From contig CANLEH010000001.1 of the NCBI GenBank assembly GCA_947489665.1, positions 1,460,501-1,524,500 on the forward strand: DNA of 64,000 nt, read 5' to 3'. Each line of letters opens with the position of its first letter. Within the stretch, counting starts at the first letter, position 1. The notes beneath the pieces are model-generated. The model searched no databases, was not told the origin of the DNA, and saw only the letters and a program-made list of their open reading frames with translations. Below are positions 4,018 to 17,608 of this stretch, piece after piece. A program made the translations under genes and the position numbers. The DNA comes from an uncultured Roseicyclus sp. (GTDB lineage Bacteria; Pseudomonadota; Alphaproteobacteria; Rhodobacterales; Rhodobacteraceae).

Positions 4018-5727
4018 TTGCTGCCCAAAAGCCTTTCTGCACTGTTTTTCACGACCAACGCGGCGCTTTTCGCCGCCAGCGCGACCCTGGCACAAGGCAT
4101 TGATTTGCCAGATCAAAGTATCGTTGATGAACAACTTGCCCAACTAAACCAGAACGTTCCCGGCACCATCTTCGCGATGCAGCCTTTCCGCAACGCCCAG
4201 ACGCTGACGGGTGAGGACGGAACGACATACACGCTGACCTCGCTGAACCCGCACGTGAACTCATGGTTTGTGCTTGAAATAGCGCCGGAAGGCGGGCGCT
4301 CACGCTTCGCGCACTTTGAGAACGGGGCACCGGACACCTGGGATATCTCGCTGATCGACGAAGATGGGCCGACCCTTCTGATCGAAGGGGAAGGGGATAG
4401 TTTTGCCTGCGCTCCATGGGATGATGGCGAATTGGAAGAGGCGCAAACAAGCGCATTGCCATTTGCACCCGTTTGCGATTGGAGCCTTTTTGTTCGCAAT
4501 CCGGTCAGCGGAAACCGCACGACCCGCGAAGCTGTGGCTGAATTCCTGCGCGATAATATCGTTTTTGGCGAATCCATTGTGAATTTGATCAAGGGCGCCT
4601 TCTTTGAAGATGCATTCATGGTGTCCTCCGAAGGGGAAGAGGAAGTCGAGGAAATCGATGGCGTCGAACTTCTGGGGACGGCCCTGCTCGACAGCACTCC
4701 GAACATGCGCCCCTATATGGGTTTTGAGCTGAGCGGGACCGACGCAGGCGCGATGACGGCCGGTTCTTGGTACGAGGTTGAAAACAGCCCTGGCATCTAC
4801 GCGTCCGTCATGCAGCCGTCGATGATCGCGAACGAGGTTTTCCAGGTCTCTGGCGCCAACGGGTTGGACAGCATCGAGCGGCGTGCCGACGTCTATCTGG
4901 TTGCGTTCGACATGGCGCGCTTTGAGATCGGTTATGAATTGGGCACCGAGCATCCACGCCTAGGCTGGTCGTCGCGCCCTTCCAACAGGCACGGCCAGGG
5001 CCGTGGACCGGATGGTTTTGATCGGCCTGATCCACTGGTGCGCACGGGCATGCTGAGCCCGGCCTTTGTCGAGCGTGTCGCGGCAACCTTTACCGGCGGG
5101 TTCAAACGGGACCATGGGGCATGGCGCTTTGGCGACTACGCGACCTTCAACTACGGCCACCATTACGGCTTCATGCAGAATGGTGTGTTGATCTCTCGCC
5201 TCTGGCCGAACCTTGCCACGATGTATCTGACGCAAGACGGTGAGGTCGATATGCGCACCTGGTCGGAAGAGGATGACGCACTTTTGTCCGATCTGGTCTT
5301 TGCGCGGCAAAACGGCGTACCCATCATCGAGGACGGCGTGCCGGGCCCCCGCGTGACCTCATGGGGTGGCGGCAATTGGTCGGGGGATGCGAATGCGACT
5401 TTGCGTACCTTGCGGGGCGGGGCGTGCATGCGCACCGTGGAGGGGCGCCAATTCTTGATTTATGCCTATTTCTCCTCTGCCACGCCGTCGGCCATGGCGC
5501 GGACATTCCAAGCCTATCAGTGCGACTATGCCATGCTGCTCGACATGAATTCGCAGGAGCACACATACATGGCGCTCTACGTCCACGACGAAGAGGGCGA
5601 GGAAGAGATGCAGTGGCAGCACCTCGTCTCTGGCATGGCGGAAGCGGACCCGGACAATGGCCGCATCGCTCGCTTCATTGGCGCACCAGACAACCGTGAT
5701 TTCTTTTATCTTTTGCGGAGGCAGTGA
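4018..5727 (+). CDS. Secreted protein of unknown function (569 aa)
   Basis: Translation from the TTG at 4018 gives a typical Sec signal peptide (about residues 1-26, ending SATLAQG), which supports this start. The mature protein is acidic, rich in aromatic residues and has few Cys, consistent with a periplasmic or extracellular enzyme or binding protein. I do not recognise a family. Its stop (TGA at 5725-5727) shares a base with the ATG of the next gene, which also encodes an exported protein, so the two are probably coexpressed and may act on the same extracellular target. Confidence 0.8.
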   Translation: MLPKSLSALFFTTNAALFAASATLAQGIDLPDQSIVDEQLAQLNQNVPGTIFAMQPFRNAQTLTGEDGTTYTLTSLNPHVNSWFVLEIAPEGGRSRFAHFENGAPDTWDISLIDEDGPTLLIEGEGDSFACAPWDDGELEEAQTSALPFAPVCDWSLFVRNPVSGNRTTREAVAEFLRDNIVFGESIVNLIKGAFFEDAFMVSSEGEEEVEEIDGVELLGTALLDSTPNMRPYMGFELSGTDAGAMTAGSWYEVENSPGIYASVMQPSMIANEVFQVSGANGLDSIERRADVYLVAFDMARFEIGYELGTEHPRLGWSSRPSNRHGQGRGPDGFDRPDPLVRTGMLSPAFVERVAATFTGGFKRDHGAWRFGDYATFNYGHHYGFMQNGVLISRLWPNLATMYLTQDGEVDMRTWSEEDDALLSDLVFARQNGVPIIEDGVPGPRVTSWGGGNWSGDANATLRTLRGGACMRTVEGRQFLIYAYFSSATPSAMARTFQAYQCDYAMLLDMNSQEHTYMALYVHDEEGEEEMQWQHLVSGMAEADPDNGRIARFIGAPDNRDFFYLLRRQ

Positions 5728-6755
5728 TGGCTATTCGAACGACCTTAAAGGCCGCTTGCGCGGCGCTTGCACTTGCACTGACCGGCGGGGCGGCCGACGC
5801 CCAATCGTTGGGGGAGCGGAACGAGCTTCTGTTCCAGCAATTGCAGGAGATCCGGGGGCTTTCGAACTCGGAAATTAACCGCGTGCGCCAGATCTTTGCG
5901 GGATCGCCCAACGGCTGGATGGGGCAGGGCAACCCTGCCGTCACCCAGCACCCGCTGACGCCGGAAGAGGCCGCTGCGCGCCTTGGCGGCACGGTGGAGC
6001 AGGTGCAGGCAAGTTACCGCAACCGCGAATATGAACGCATCTGCGGCGGGCCTTATATGGTGCCGCTGTATGATCCCCAGACACAGTCGCCGCGGGATGC
6101 GACGGTGTGCGCAGATATGTTTGAATATCCAAACATCCCAATGGTTTACCCGGTCGTCTGGGTCCGTGCGAACGAAGCGGCGCAGCTGTGCGCAGCGGAA
6201 GGCGGGCGGATCGGCGATGCCCATGAATGGGAGGGGGCCGCGGCGGGCCAGCTGCTGCCGCCCGATTACCCGTTCGACATGATCCGAGGCATGGGCCTGT
6301 CCGCCGCGGTTAACACCATGCGGAACTGGCACAACAACCATTATGCCAGCACCTCCGGCACGTACTCGATCGGCGCCTGGCAATCGGGCGTTTGCGCGAC
6401 CGGGTCGTTCAAGAATGCCTCGTGCAACGGCGGCAGCTTTCAGGGGTGCGGATCAAACACCTATCCGGCCGGCAGCTTCCCGTCGTGCCAGTCGCCCTTG
6501 GGTGTCTATGATATCGACGGCAACGCGGCTGAGCATATGAACCTACCGCTGGCCGAAGATCAGATGGCGTCTGCCGGGTCCACGACCCTTGGCGTGACCG
6601 AGATGAAGGGGTCGTGGTTCATTTGGGACACGATCCGCGCGCATGAGCATTGGGCGCGCTGGCGCGCCCCGTTCTGGCACGGCACCCGCGTGATGAGCGA
6701 GGGGAGCCACCGGAACTATCACCTCGGGTTCAGGTGTTTCCGCGACGTGAACTGA
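5727..6755 (+). CDS. Secreted FGE/SUMF1-fold protein
   Basis: A 342-aa protein with a signal peptide (cleavage near GGAADAQS). The second half has the hallmarks of the formylglycine-generating-enzyme/sulfatase-modifying-factor fold: VVWVRANEAAQLCAAEGGRI, HEWEGAAAG, a DIDGNAAEHMN segment (usual WEW replaced) and the terminal HLGFRCFRD. The two catalytic Cys of true FGE (C-x4-C just before the terminal GFRC) are absent; that stretch reads GTRVMSEGSHRNYH. It is therefore unlikely to make formylglycine and is better seen as a ligand-binding or structural member of the fold. It starts at the ATG at 5727, coupled to the upstream gene, with a ribosome site GCGGAGG. Confidence 0.85.
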   Translation: MAIRTTLKAACAALALALTGGAADAQSLGERNELLFQQLQEIRGLSNSEINRVRQIFAGSPNGWMGQGNPAVTQHPLTPEEAAARLGGTVEQVQASYRNREYERICGGPYMVPLYDPQTQSPRDATVCADMFEYPNIPMVYPVVWVRANEAAQLCAAEGGRIGDAHEWEGAAAGQLLPPDYPFDMIRGMGLSAAVNTMRNWHNNHYASTSGTYSIGAWQSGVCATGSFKNASCNGGSFQGCGSNTYPAGSFPSCQSPLGVYDIDGNAAEHMNLPLAEDQMASAGSTTLGVTEMKGSWFIWDTIRAHEHWARWRAPFWHGTRVMSEGSHRNYHLGFRCFRDVN

Positions 6756-6825: not shown

Positions 6826-6931
6826 CGTTCAGGTGGACGCATCTCCGTTCAGGTGAACGCAAATCTCGCGAAAAACCCGCTCAACTGAACGCAGTTTCCG
6901 GGCCCGGATCGCGATGCGTTCACGTGAACGC
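6826..6931. repeat. Intergenic array of four palindromes, GTTCA-NN-TGAAC type
   Basis: Four 15-bp near-palindromes occur at 6826-6840, 6846-6860, 6878-6892 and 6917-6931. The core is CGTTCA-NN-TGAACGC, and the last copy is a perfect 16-bp palindrome when extended to 6916. The first three are spaced 5 and 17 bp apart. The 17-bp spacer (AAATCTCGCGAAAAACC) resembles the spacer of the element at 16789-16855, which has identical spacing but different arms. The array sits between two convergent genes just after a terminator, so it is not an ordinary promoter operator. Confidence 0.8.
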
Positions 6932-6977: not shown

Positions 6978-8483
6978 TCAGAGAGAGGCGAGCCGGACCG
7001 TTGCGCCGGTCAGCGCGCCGTCAGAATTCAGGAAACCGGCATAGCGTTCATCGGTCAGCAATTCGCGCAGATCGACCGCTTCGCCGTTCACATAGGCTGT
7101 GCGGCTGACGAGCCGGATACCATGAGAATAGTCCGCGTAATATTCGCCATGCACGGTCGACAGCGGCTGGATCGCGTTGCCGTTCGTGCGGTGCCATCCA
7201 TAGATCGCCACTCGTCCGGGATTGCGGGACAGGCGATTGGCGATCACGAGGTCTTTCTTGTGACCCGCGACCAACATGCCCTGCTGCGCACCTGCGCGGG
7301 CGAATTGCGCGTCGATGGTTTGGTCGTGGGTGACGAAATAGCTGGTCGAGGACATGGACGAGCCCGGCGTCATCGGCGACGGGGCCACACGAACGTCGGC
7401 CTGCCGGTAGATCGCATCCACCATCGAAGTGGTCGGCAGCATCATGTCAAAGGCGTCAGCCACGCGCAGTGCCGCAGGCAGACCAAGCGGCACGCGCACA
7501 TGATCACTGTCTGACCCGATGGCGAGGTAGTCGGGCGTCACGCAGATCGTCACGGTGATCGAGCGTCCACCCACCGTTCCATCAAACGTCACGGGGTGAA
7601 GATTGCGCATGTAGGTCGGCATGTTGCCGTTCAGCGCTTCTTGCACCAGCCGGTTGTCGCGGCCCGAGCCGGACCCGTTGCCAACTGCGGCCATCACCGC
7701 TGATCCGCCTGCGGCAGAGCCCGGGCGGCGCGGCATTTCACGTGCGAGGCGGGGGGAACATTCCCCGGCACTGCCACCAAAGAGGCTGCCGCGCGGGATT
7801 TCACCGACTTCGCCACGGGCGACTTCGATTTCAAGGTCATCGGGGCGTGCGGCGACCCGCGTCACGAGATCCTCAGGGCGGAGTGAGGGGCGCGGGCTGG
7901 CCGCTGCCAAAAGCTCGGACGTTTGCGGCCCGGTTTCCTGATCCGGCCAGGCCGGTGTGGTGGTGCCATTCGGGCGCGCCACAGGCTCCGGGAATGTTCG
8001 GGCGCGGGCGATGGTGATATTGCGCGCGACGGTCAGGATATCGGGGCCCTGCGACGGGCGTGGCAAAGGCTCAACAGCCGGGCGGCCTTCGACAACGGTA
8101 TAGGGCGCGGGGCCGGATGGGTTGGCCGCGGCCACGACGGGCGCGTCCGCTGGTTCCAGCCCCGGTGCGGTGCGCGTGCGTGGGCCCATATCGATGGCGA
8201 CCGAAACGGTTGTGTCAAAAACCTCAGGCAGCGGATAGGCGCGATCTGGCTGGATATTCGGGGACGGGGCGCTTGCAACCTCCCGCGCCAGATCAACGCG
8301 GTGAGCATCAAGCGCATTGGAATAGACGACATAGCCGCAGGCCGACGTCATCACAGTCGACGCCAAAACAAGCCCCAGAACGCCGTTGGGGCGTTCAAAG
8401 AAGCCGGGCTTGCTGACTGCCGCCTGCACCTTGTCGGCCCGCGCGCGTCCGCGCACGATTCTGGCCGTTACTGTCCCATTCAT
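6978..8483 (-). CDS. Membrane-anchored periplasmic protein of unknown function
   Basis: A 501-aa protein with a basic N-terminus, one membrane segment around residues 34-58 (GVLGLVLASTVMTSACGYVV), and a Pro-rich variable region to about residue 270. A compact C-terminal domain of about 220 residues follows. That domain has strong local motifs (CVTPDYLAIGSDSDHVRVPLG, GHKKDLVIANRL, VAIYGWH, QPLSTVHGEYYADYSHGIRLV) with several His and Asp that look catalytic or metal-binding. I do not recognise the family. The start at 8483 is preceded by a Gly/Ala-rich leader (GGGGCAGAG). It appears monocistronic. Confidence 0.8.
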   Translation of the reverse strand: MNGTVTARIVRGRARADKVQAAVSKPGFFERPNGVLGLVLASTVMTSACGYVVYSNALDAHRVDLAREVASAPSPNIQPDRAYPLPEVFDTTVSVAIDMGPRTRTAPGLEPADAPVVAAANPSGPAPYTVVEGRPAVEPLPRPSQGPDILTVARNITIARARTFPEPVARPNGTTTPAWPDQETGPQTSELLAAASPRPSLRPEDLVTRVAARPDDLEIEVARGEVGEIPRGSLFGGSAGECSPRLAREMPRRPGSAAGGSAVMAAVGNGSGSGRDNRLVQEALNGNMPTYMRNLHPVTFDGTVGGRSITVTICVTPDYLAIGSDSDHVRVPLGLPAALRVADAFDMMLPTTSMVDAIYRQADVRVAPSPMTPGSSMSSTSYFVTHDQTIDAQFARAGAQQGMLVAGHKKDLVIANRLSRNPGRVAIYGWHRTNGNAIQPLSTVHGEYYADYSHGIRLVSRTAYVNGEAVDLRELLTDERYAGFLNSDGALTGATVRLASL

Positions 8484-15811: not shown

Positions 15812-15942
15812 GGTTTTATACTGTTTTCTGCACCTGCAACATCATGCACAATGTCAAAATAATACATGTTTTTGTCAAGATCGGGTCTGCCCTCGCCAAG
15901 CCGACTTGGCTTAGCGTTTTGGTTAACGGGGAGGAATATGGC
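15812..15942. promoter_or_regulatory. Divergent AraC/PhyH control region
   Basis: 131 bp between divergent start codons, more AT-rich than its flanks. It contains an inverted repeat GCCAAG-CCGA-CTTGGC (15896-15911) and, nearer the araC side, a run rich in TGCA and CAT motifs (15828-15870). The plus-strand gene has a good ribosome site (GGGGAGGAA) just before 15943. AraC binding is inferred from position. Confidence 0.5.
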
Positions 15943-16779
15943 ATGGGGCTTGCGAGCACGTCGCTGGACCTGCGCTTTCAGCCCGCCGTGGCGGCACGCG
16001 CCCGGCGGCTGAGCGTATCGGACATAGACCATTACAACAGGCAAGGTTTTGTGCAGCCGTTCGACGTGTTCGGCGCGGACGAAATGGCGCGCATCCGTGC
16101 CTATTTCGACAAGCTGATGTCCGACCTCGGGCCAGACGGTGCCTATGGCATCAATTGCTATCAGGCGCGCATGGCGGGGATTTGGGATATCGCCACCGAC
16201 AGCCGCATCCTGGACCTCGTCCAAGACATAATCGGGCCGGACATCATCTGTTGGGCCAGCGCGATTTTGTCAAAGAAACCAGAGGGATCACGTAGGGTTC
16301 CGTGGCATCAGGATGCCTCGTTCTGGCAGCTATCACCGGCGCGGACGGTAACGGTCTGGCTTGCGATTGATGATGCAGACGCAGAGAACGCGGCCATGTG
16401 CTTTATCCCCGGTACCCACGCGCAGGGCGTGTTGGAGACGGCGGATATGGGCGCGGACAGCGTGTTTCACAAAGGCATCGCTGATGCGGAGCGCTATGGC
16501 GCCCCCTTTGTCAACTCATTGAAAGCAGGGCAAATTTCGCTTCATGCGGACATGTTGGTGCATGGATCTGACATCAACCGCTCGAACCGGCGGCGCTGTG
16601 GGCTGACGCTGCGCTATTGCAGCCCGGAAAGCCAGATCACGGACCCTGATTGGGCCAAAGGTGTTGAGGCGATCATCGCGCGCGGGAGCGATCCAAGCGG
16701 CCATTGGCGCCACCATCCGCGGCCCGAAAACGACGATATTCTCGCCACCTCCAGCCCGCATGTTGTGGGGAACAATTGA
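15943..16779 (+). CDS. Phytanoyl-CoA dioxygenase (PhyH) family Fe(II)/2-oxoglutarate oxygenase
   Basis: A 278-aa oxygenase of the PhyH superfamily. The iron triad is H122-Q-D124 (VPWHQDASFW) and H207 (HADMLVHGSDINRSN), with Arg residues at 213-218 placed to bind 2-oxoglutarate. The start at 15943 is set by GGGGAGGAA; the longer frame upstream lacks a ribosome site. The substrate is unknown; bacterial members hydroxylate many small molecules. It is the first gene of a run with the MBL-fold protein, ABC transporter, P450 and mannosidase, so it probably oxidises an imported compound or its aglycone. Confidence 0.9.
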   Translation: MGLASTSLDLRFQPAVAARARRLSVSDIDHYNRQGFVQPFDVFGADEMARIRAYFDKLMSDLGPDGAYGINCYQARMAGIWDIATDSRILDLVQDIIGPDIICWASAILSKKPEGSRRVPWHQDASFWQLSPARTVTVWLAIDDADAENAAMCFIPGTHAQGVLETADMGADSVFHKGIADAERYGAPFVNSLKAGQISLHADMLVHGSDINRSNRRRCGLTLRYCSPESQITDPDWAKGVEAIIARGSDPSGHWRHHPRPENDDILATSSPHVVGNN

Positions 16780-16788
16780 TGCAAACAG

Positions 16789-16855
16789 CGTCCATCTGGT
16801 CACAATTGCGCCCATCTGGTCACATTATTCGTGAAAAAAGCGACCAAATGGTCAC
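16789..16855. repeat. Intergenic array of three palindromes, GACCA-NN-TGGTC type
   Basis: Three 15-bp units lie at 16789-16803, 16809-16823 and 16841-16855, ending TGGTCAC. The third has a complete GACCA-AA-TGGTC palindrome, and the first two have GtCCA/GcCCA left arms. Spacers are 5 and 17 bp, exactly as in the element at 6826-6892. The 17-bp spacer (ATTATTCGTGAAAAAAG) matches that of the other element at 10 of 17 positions. It begins 9 bp after the PhyH stop and ends 72 bp before the next gene. Confidence 0.8.
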
Positions 16856-16927: not shown

Positions 16928-17608
16928 ATGAAAATCACATGGTTCGGACATGCGGCGTTCAAACTGACCGATGCGCGCGGCTTTTCCGTCATCACCGATC
17001 CCTACACACCTGAAGGCGTCGGCTATGCTCCGATCCGCGAGAGCGCGGATGTCGTCATCATCTCGTCCGACGATGACAGCGCCCATTGCCGCGCTGATCT
17101 GATTGAGGGCGATCCGCTGGTCCTGAATGCGCTGGATGTCGCGAAGGCTGGTGGCGCGGGCGAGGCGGGTGGGCTGGCCGTTCATGCCATCGAGGCAATG
17201 GAGTGGGAATTGCACCCCGAACACGACATTCCCGGACAGAACGGAATGTACCGCTTTGAACTGGACGGCCTGAGGATCGCGCATATGGGCGATGTCGGAA
17301 ACCCGTTGACCGAGGCGCAGCAGGATTTCTTTGCCGACACCGATGTGCTTCTGGCCTTGGCCGGTGGCTACCTGACCATCGAGCTGCCCGACCTGATGCA
17401 GATGATCCACCGGGTGAAGCCCAAGGTGATTATCCCGATGCATTTCCGCACGCTGACCTACAAGCCGCGTAACACGATGTGGATCGAAAGCTTTCTGGCG
17501 CATTTCCGCGACACCCATGTGGATTTCGCCTGTTCCCATACCATCGACCTGAACGCCGCCGATCTGCCCGATCATACGCGCGTGATGGTGATGGATTACG
17601 TCCGATAA
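16928..17608 (+). CDS. Metallo-beta-lactamase-fold protein with altered metal motif
   Basis: A 226-aa protein of the COG2220-like MBL family (N-terminus MKITWFGHAAFKL, then HMGDVGNPLTEAQ, LALAGGYLTIELPDL and IPMHFRT). The normal metal-binding HxHxDH after strand 4 is replaced by SSDDDSAH (in VVIISSDDDSAHCRAD), so at least two of the usual His ligands are missing while the later Asp and His are kept. It could bind one metal, use Asp ligands, or be inactive. It starts at the ATG at 16928 after a G-rich ribosome site. It sits in the cluster with the PhyH oxygenase and transporter; role unknown. Confidence 0.85.
   Translation: MKITWFGHAAFKLTDARGFSVITDPYTPEGVGYAPIRESADVVIISSDDDSAHCRADLIEGDPLVLNALDVAKAGGAGEAGGLAVHAIEAMEWELHPEHDIPGQNGMYRFELDGLRIAHMGDVGNPLTEAQQDFFADTDVLLALAGGYLTIELPDLMQMIHRVKPKVIIPMHFRTLTYKPRNTMWIESFLAHFRDTHVDFACSHTIDLNAADLPDHTRVMVMDYVR

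Follow-up and report, generated by a model that had tools for sequence, protein, structure and literature searches.

What are clusters of short palindromes doing in the gaps between genes of a Roseicyclus chromosome, where two clusters share one spacing plan and carry different arms? Both lie in the window, the 64,000-nucleotide stretch of DNA analysed here. A preliminary description of it had reported four palindromes at 6826, 6846, 6878 and 6917 and a 15-5-15-17-15 plan at 16789-16855, and direct reading of the sequence confirmed both: the sites are 15 bp each, with spacers of 5, 17 and 24 bp in array 1 and of 5 and 17 bp in array 2. The features, the genes being given for context only, are as follows.

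5724..6755, + strand: gene upstream of array 1 with an FGE-sulfatase domain; its stop lies 70 bp before P1
6784..6808, + strand: terminator-like inverted repeat and T-run directly before array 1, read from the sequence
6826..6840, + strand: array 1 palindrome P1, with one mismatched pair; model match G000:C1:1467315-1467408 +
6846..6860, + strand: array 1 palindrome P2, 20 bp from P1, centre to centre
6861..6877, + strand: array 1 17-bp spacer, with a T-run/A-run near-dyad inside
6878..6892, + strand: array 1 palindrome P3, 32 bp from P2, centre to centre
6917..6931, + strand: array 1 extra palindrome P4, 39 bp from the P3 centre and outside the common three-site plan
6978..8483, - strand: gene without a Pfam match, convergent to the FGE-sulfatase gene, its stop codon on the far side of array 1
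15844..16779, + strand: PhyH gene before array 2; its stop lies 9 bp before P1
16789..16803, + strand: array 2 palindrome P1, of the CCA/TGG class; model match G000:C1:1477278-1477371 +
16809..16823, + strand: array 2 palindrome P2, 20 bp from P1, centre to centre
16824..16840, + strand: array 2 17-bp spacer, read from the sequence
16841..16855, + strand: array 2 palindrome P3, 32 bp from P2, centre to centre
16928..17608, + strand: beta-lactamase-fold gene after array 2, its start as chosen in this analysis

A position between convergent genes, as first described, holds for cluster 1 and not for cluster 2, whose PhyH and beta-lactamase-fold neighbours run in the same direction. Further palindromes past P3, at steps of about 24 bp, were seen by eye in four other copies from the same genome (L118, L112, L108 and L190), beside the 39 bp of P4 in array 1.

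Within the window the single motifs are close to chance, the array 1 motif giving 19 matches with at most two mismatches against 15.4 (sd 5.0) in shuffles, and the GACCA motif 63, not above chance, against 51.9. The significance of the arrays derives from paired spacings across the genome from which the window comes (G000, here the source genome). There the 20-bp-spaced pair was matched 29 times per strand against 2 in a reversed-pattern control, the 32-bp-spaced pair 19 times against 1, and the CCA/TGG 32-bp pair 17 and 13 times against 0 and 0. A covariance model of 94 columns, built from 34 aligned copies, recovered all 34 training copies among 44 full-length, indel-free copies (E < 1e-9) in the 4.13-Mb source genome, or one per about 95 kb on average. 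Both window clusters are copies of this one dispersed element, family A, a multi-copy set of intergenic palindromes. Eleven of 100 scored places were dropped (score < 55) as reverse readings of arrays already counted, and the later counts for the source genome use 43 copies, the 44th (C1:1385931) being merged with the sequence-identical copy L148 of a relative, G006.

The plan of family A consists of three palindromes GNNCA-NN-TGNNC whose centres are separated by exactly 20 bp and then exactly 32 bp, and it is free of gaps in 34/34 aligned copies. The invariant columns at each of the three sites read G-NN-C(A)-NN-TG-NN-C, with few exceptions at A17. Among the 204 half-sites the commonest are GACCA (66), GTTCA (62), GTCCA (42) and GCTCA (23). 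The arms fall into two main classes with a common 20/32 plan and a similar spacer, and copies of the source genome are bimodal in CCA/TGG half-sites, with no more than 2 of 6 in 16 copies and 5 or 6 of 6 in 23; for G006 the figures are 32 and 6. Pairwise identity reaches 0.88 for the best pair, with a median of 0.65. With 44 copies, two arm classes, one plan and a similar spacer, the elements form the proposed family with diversified recognition sites. That the arms had changed in a compensated way proved partly correct: the pair next to the CA-NN-TG core follows the class; further out mismatches are frequent, and within a class partners show no covariation. GTCCA is paired with GACCA in 33 of the 102 palindromes, so that most sites of the CCA/TGG class are imperfectly compensated.

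The family is confined to a narrow lineage in the genomes surveyed. A first survey covered 61 genomes (the source, 12 congeners, a further 24 from the family and 24 from the class), of which three carry family A: the source genome with 44 copies, G006 with 42 full-length copies and G010 with 4, so the window clusters are far from being the only two copies. None of the 48 genomes outside the genus had it. In a wider draw of 394 genomes, made with stricter filters and with 10 candidates scored per genome, the source genome and G006 matched and the 392 of other genera gave none; G010 was not in this draw. Plasmids gave no match to array 1 at E 1. Viral sequences gave no match to the class 2 pattern; the family A pattern matched four stretches resembling coding repeats. 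A phage origin was considered and rejected. A triple of ACTAC, the unit of another array family described below, occurs in 30 viral stretches, some resembling integrase attachment arms. Six viral contigs (L449, L450, L451, L453, L457 and L465) show integrase-arm-like ACTAC repeats of 11-bp period beside a common AT-rich stretch. In the literature searched, no description was recognised as these arrays.

Gene context bears on whether the palindromes are ordinary operators, through which a dyad-binding repressor controls neighbouring genes. Dyad sites with helical phasing would suit such a role, and GACCA-NN-TGGTC presumably resembles the sites of RutR-type regulators. Contexts were assigned with a purpose-written gene caller for all sites except 4/83 of family B and 1/8 of family C, two direct-repeat families with units ACTACAG and ATATACC. 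Arrays were found mostly at gene 3' ends, often starting just past the stop codon; of the 43 source copies 18 lie between convergent genes and 3 between divergent genes, against the promoter-side location expected of an operator and in agreement with the earlier remark that the location argues against a simple operator. Different families also occupy the same address in relatives, and an operator function is accordingly held to be very improbable.

The arrays are polar with respect to local GC skew. Measured in 1.3-kb flanks on both sides of each array, skew along the A direction is positive in 84/89 (source 40/43, G006 41/42, G010 3/4); along the B direction it is negative in 76/83, and along the C direction in 8/8. 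For family A the sign is positive at 38/38 convergent, 6/6 divergent, and 11/11 and 29/34 tandem sites. Since it holds in every gene context, polarity follows skew and not gene direction. Of 27 ORFs picked in the window, from both strands, 25 have a G-rich + strand. The orientation of SSU rRNA, assumed to be co-directional with replication, agrees with that of neighbouring arrays in the 3/3 genomes that gave a match; 8/11 gave none. Array orientation flips repeatedly along long contigs of the source genome and G006, and the arrays thus track local skew and not necessarily present fork direction. As a hint only, 71/88 A arrays border on the 3' end of a G-poor-strand gene, compared with 23/57 other gene pairs with gaps of at least 40 bp, and 93/155 without a gap limit.

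Spacing along the chromosome is also more even than random. For A and B sites together, with family B by exact-pattern sites only, the gaps have a CV of 0.53 in G006, compared with 0.95 at random, and 0/5000 random placements were as even. In the source genome the CV is 0.65 (4/5000), and for B gaps 0.61 in G001 (78/5000) and 0.54 in G011 (203/5000). The test used 42 of the 44 source places, the single-copy contigs C7 and C8 being excluded, and 41 places of G006, two copies 101 bp apart being merged.

Skew itself varies around some sites. At the convergent site named after the source copy L118, skew over the 1 kb past the array is 0.036-0.111 in 7 array loci, and averages 0.012 in 73 others. 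In the stretches fetched from G009 and G010 it is mostly near 0 but reaches 0.07 to 0.2 over 10-20 kb round some arrays, for example L516-L517 (G010 C1, about 952-964 kb) and L506 (G010 C1, 350-370 kb); two arrays, one at G010 C1:119.4 kb and the other at G009 C1:951.9 kb, lack such a skew island.

Comparison with G006 separates the address of an array from its sequence. Two-sided flank matches pair 36/43 source copies with orthologous copies in G006, and all 37/37 pairings (one source copy matches a G006 double) have the same orientation, with 0 opposite. The seven without such a match are L056, which is array 1 of the window, L105, L107, L110, L115, L185 and L186. Over the 36 pairs, identity is 0.976 at core positions, 0.556 at variable half-site positions, 0.615 in spacers and 0.431 at centre dinucleotides, and it is 0.600 and 0.429 in the adjoining 20-bp flanks. 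Non-orthologous copies give 0.975 for the core, 0.460 for half-sites and 0.301 for the centre; their cores being equally alike, core identity shows the motif and not site-by-site history. By arm class, 15 pairs are CCA/TGG in the source genome and TTCA/TGAA in G006 and one is the reverse, with 10 and 3 in agreement.

The same address can also hold a different kind of array. At the L118 site, ACTAC units at an 11-bp period are found in G001 and G003, with similar ones in G011, and ATATACC units in G008 and G009. Across the genomes, flanks on both sides match an A site to a B or C site at seven different places, and the relative polarity is identical in each. The 43 A sites of the source genome and the 23 B sites of G003 have 6 in common. 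For chance to yield this overlap, the pool of eligible sites would, on an arithmetic estimate, have to be as small as about 165; the overlap may stem from hotspots and not from inheritance alone. By eye, 7/80 loci of the L118 site have arrays of kinds A, B, C, E or F, and a few others have palindromes of another kind. The tandem palindromes AAAATCTGCGCAGATTTT, CTTTAAAG and GTCCCA..TGGGAC were seen at this site in L369 and L424 after 6131 and in L200 (G007). A scan of these 80 named loci and the window (932 kb, periods 8 to 25) returned three exact 6-mer triples of period 11, all at the L118 site (L370, L394 and L397); those of other periods were confined to 15, 18, 21, 24 and 25 (1, 1, 3, 4 and 1).

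Exact ACTAC pairs number 28 in G001, 38 in G003, 15 in G011, 19 in G006, 11 in the source genome and 2 in G004, with 0 in seven other genomes of the genus, 0 to 2 per genome in the control, and one each in 3/48 genomes outside the genus. Exact ATATACC pairs, the 18-mer ATATACCATTGATATACC being set aside, occur in G008, G009 and G010 only, and CGTACAC pairs in 4/101 genomes at 1 to 4 per genome. The exact 18-mer, as in L361 (G000 C2:506859), is present 1 to 8 times in 11/13 genomes of the genus and absent from G003 and G006; it is apparently a separate motif.

At one site G009 and G010 are 95.3% and 93.9% identical on its two sides, but the array sits in the middle of a divergent island, about 300 bp long, that holds a C array in one genome and an A array in the other. 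An array-centred recombination hotspot was considered and rejected: the long alignments, about 92-96% identical, contain 54 islands (100-bp window < 0.80 identity) in about 210 kb (L483-L522), and divergence at the array site thus resembles the usual mosaic left by recombination. Of the four A sites in G010 two were comparable, the other two being unaligned in the stretches fetched, and because both lie in divergent tracts the G010 copies are read as probable imports.

Palindromes at 3' ends could alternatively act when single-stranded, either as folded RNA, for 3'-UTR stability or as a two-way terminator, or as DNA hairpins at the fork. Whole elements fold as RNA far more stably than their dinucleotide-shuffled versions, with a mean z of -4.2 for either strand and z < -2 in 75/89, against a mean of -0.4 and 19/178 in flank controls. 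Class 1 arrays have a hairpin plus T-run, and a simple scan found terminator-like matches inside 9/43 source, 13/42 G006 and 1/4 G010 arrays. Strong folding of whole elements would be expected of nested palindromes, and single palindromes, unlike whole elements, are weak as hairpins. When partners were shuffled within arm class, the closing stem P1-left/P3-right gave a weak covariation signal (z 2.1, 49/2000 shuffles), and the other six stems tested gave none (z 0.9 to -3.2), with z from 0.0 to -3.2 for the three palindromes and the inner pair of hairpins. The folds of the four copies shown differ from one another, six single-stranded DNA folds gave z of +0.3 to -2.4, and polarity goes by skew and not by gene direction. 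A single-stranded role is improbable but is kept as a rival, and double-stranded protein sites are therefore preferred, though a little less strongly in view of the folding.

The main rival to protein sites is a dispersed, non-autonomous mobile element of the REP/MITE-like kind, whose transposase would prefer one fork strand and gene 3' ends. The even intervals would then result from target immunity, and the three families would be successive waves. Dispersal, intergenic location, polarity, even spacing and lineage-restricted families all suit this origin, but the copies are old and diverse (the best pair and median identities given above) and yet keep their plan free of indels, orthologous sites persist from one species to another, and unrelated families at one address would require strong hotspots. 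On balance, mobility of this kind appears rather unlikely.

Returning to double-stranded protein sites, it is about an even call that the arrays serve putative DNA-binding proteins of switching specificity with a role at chromosome scale. Each cluster would be one of some 44 family A arrays of double-stranded binding sites, at which sequence-specific proteins would bind the half-sites G(TT/AC/TC/CT)CA, the steps of 20 and 32 bp being close to whole numbers of helical turns, possibly with two binder specificities in the source genome, one per arm class. The arrays would be polar marks for organisation, segregation, or fork or translocase handling, not for local gene regulation. The address would be under selection, the code would change together with its binder, and single arrays could also be imported through ordinary homologous recombination. 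Binder, task and order of events are what we infer from the observed copies, plan and addresses; whole-element folding, the orientation flips, the 7/43 source copies without a two-sided G006 match, the equally high core identity of non-orthologous copies and the reliance on a purpose-written gene caller for the contexts are counted against this reading. From the first interpretation of the locus, the diversified intergenic family and the non-operator context are retained, and full compensation and the convergent setting of cluster 2 are given up. Polarity, even spacing and the change of arm class or of the entire array family at retained orthologous sites go beyond that interpretation.

A more specific version, put forward tentatively and at less than even confidence, is that the arrays are chromosome-wide polar landmarks whose addresses, evenly spaced 3' ends, are inherited, with the code rewritten wholesale between species and the polarity kept. 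The codes would be palindrome triplets in two species and 11-bp direct repeats of ACTACAG, ATATACC, CGTACAC or ACGTCGG elsewhere in the genus and its neighbours. If addresses persist while the sequence is swapped as a unit, searches for conserved motifs would miss such systems. Close species whose codes differ at shared places would be a natural experiment in which a reader and dozens of sites change together, and such pairs would make it testable which chromosome process needs polar marks at these intervals.

Several known systems share single features with family A. MatP-matS, SlmA and the ParB/Noc sites (parS/NBS) are dispersed dyads of similar length, and the inner TTCA-NN-TGAA of family A is what we take to resemble parS; to our knowledge those sites are single dyads without polarity, and families B and C differ from them as 11-bp direct repeats. 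REP sequences and BIMEs, like family A, are numerous palindromes between genes, grouped into composite units with regular spacing (PMC2817692); family A differs in its fixed 20/32 plan, its orientation by local skew, its evenness along the chromosome and the exchange of half-site codes at constant addresses. Sequences of the AIMS/KOPS type have a preferential leading-strand orientation (PMC5993296), and family A likewise runs along the locally G-rich strand in 84/89; AIMS are abundant 8-mers, whereas family A consists of 44 long three-site arrays, neither short nor highly abundant. Tus-Ter fork barriers are polar sites relative to replication (PMC8707476), as family A is polar relative to the measured local skew, but family A extends over all larger contigs with many species-specific codes; source copies lie on contigs C1-C8 and are evenly spaced. 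The binding specificity of ParB and Noc can switch (PMC7383237). In conclusion, with membership in none of these classes established, single features of the arrays recall REP/BIME, AIMS/KOPS, Ter and ParB/Noc sites, and if they are indeed chromosome landmarks they would form a rapidly evolving bacterial equivalent of anchor sites that depend on orientation.
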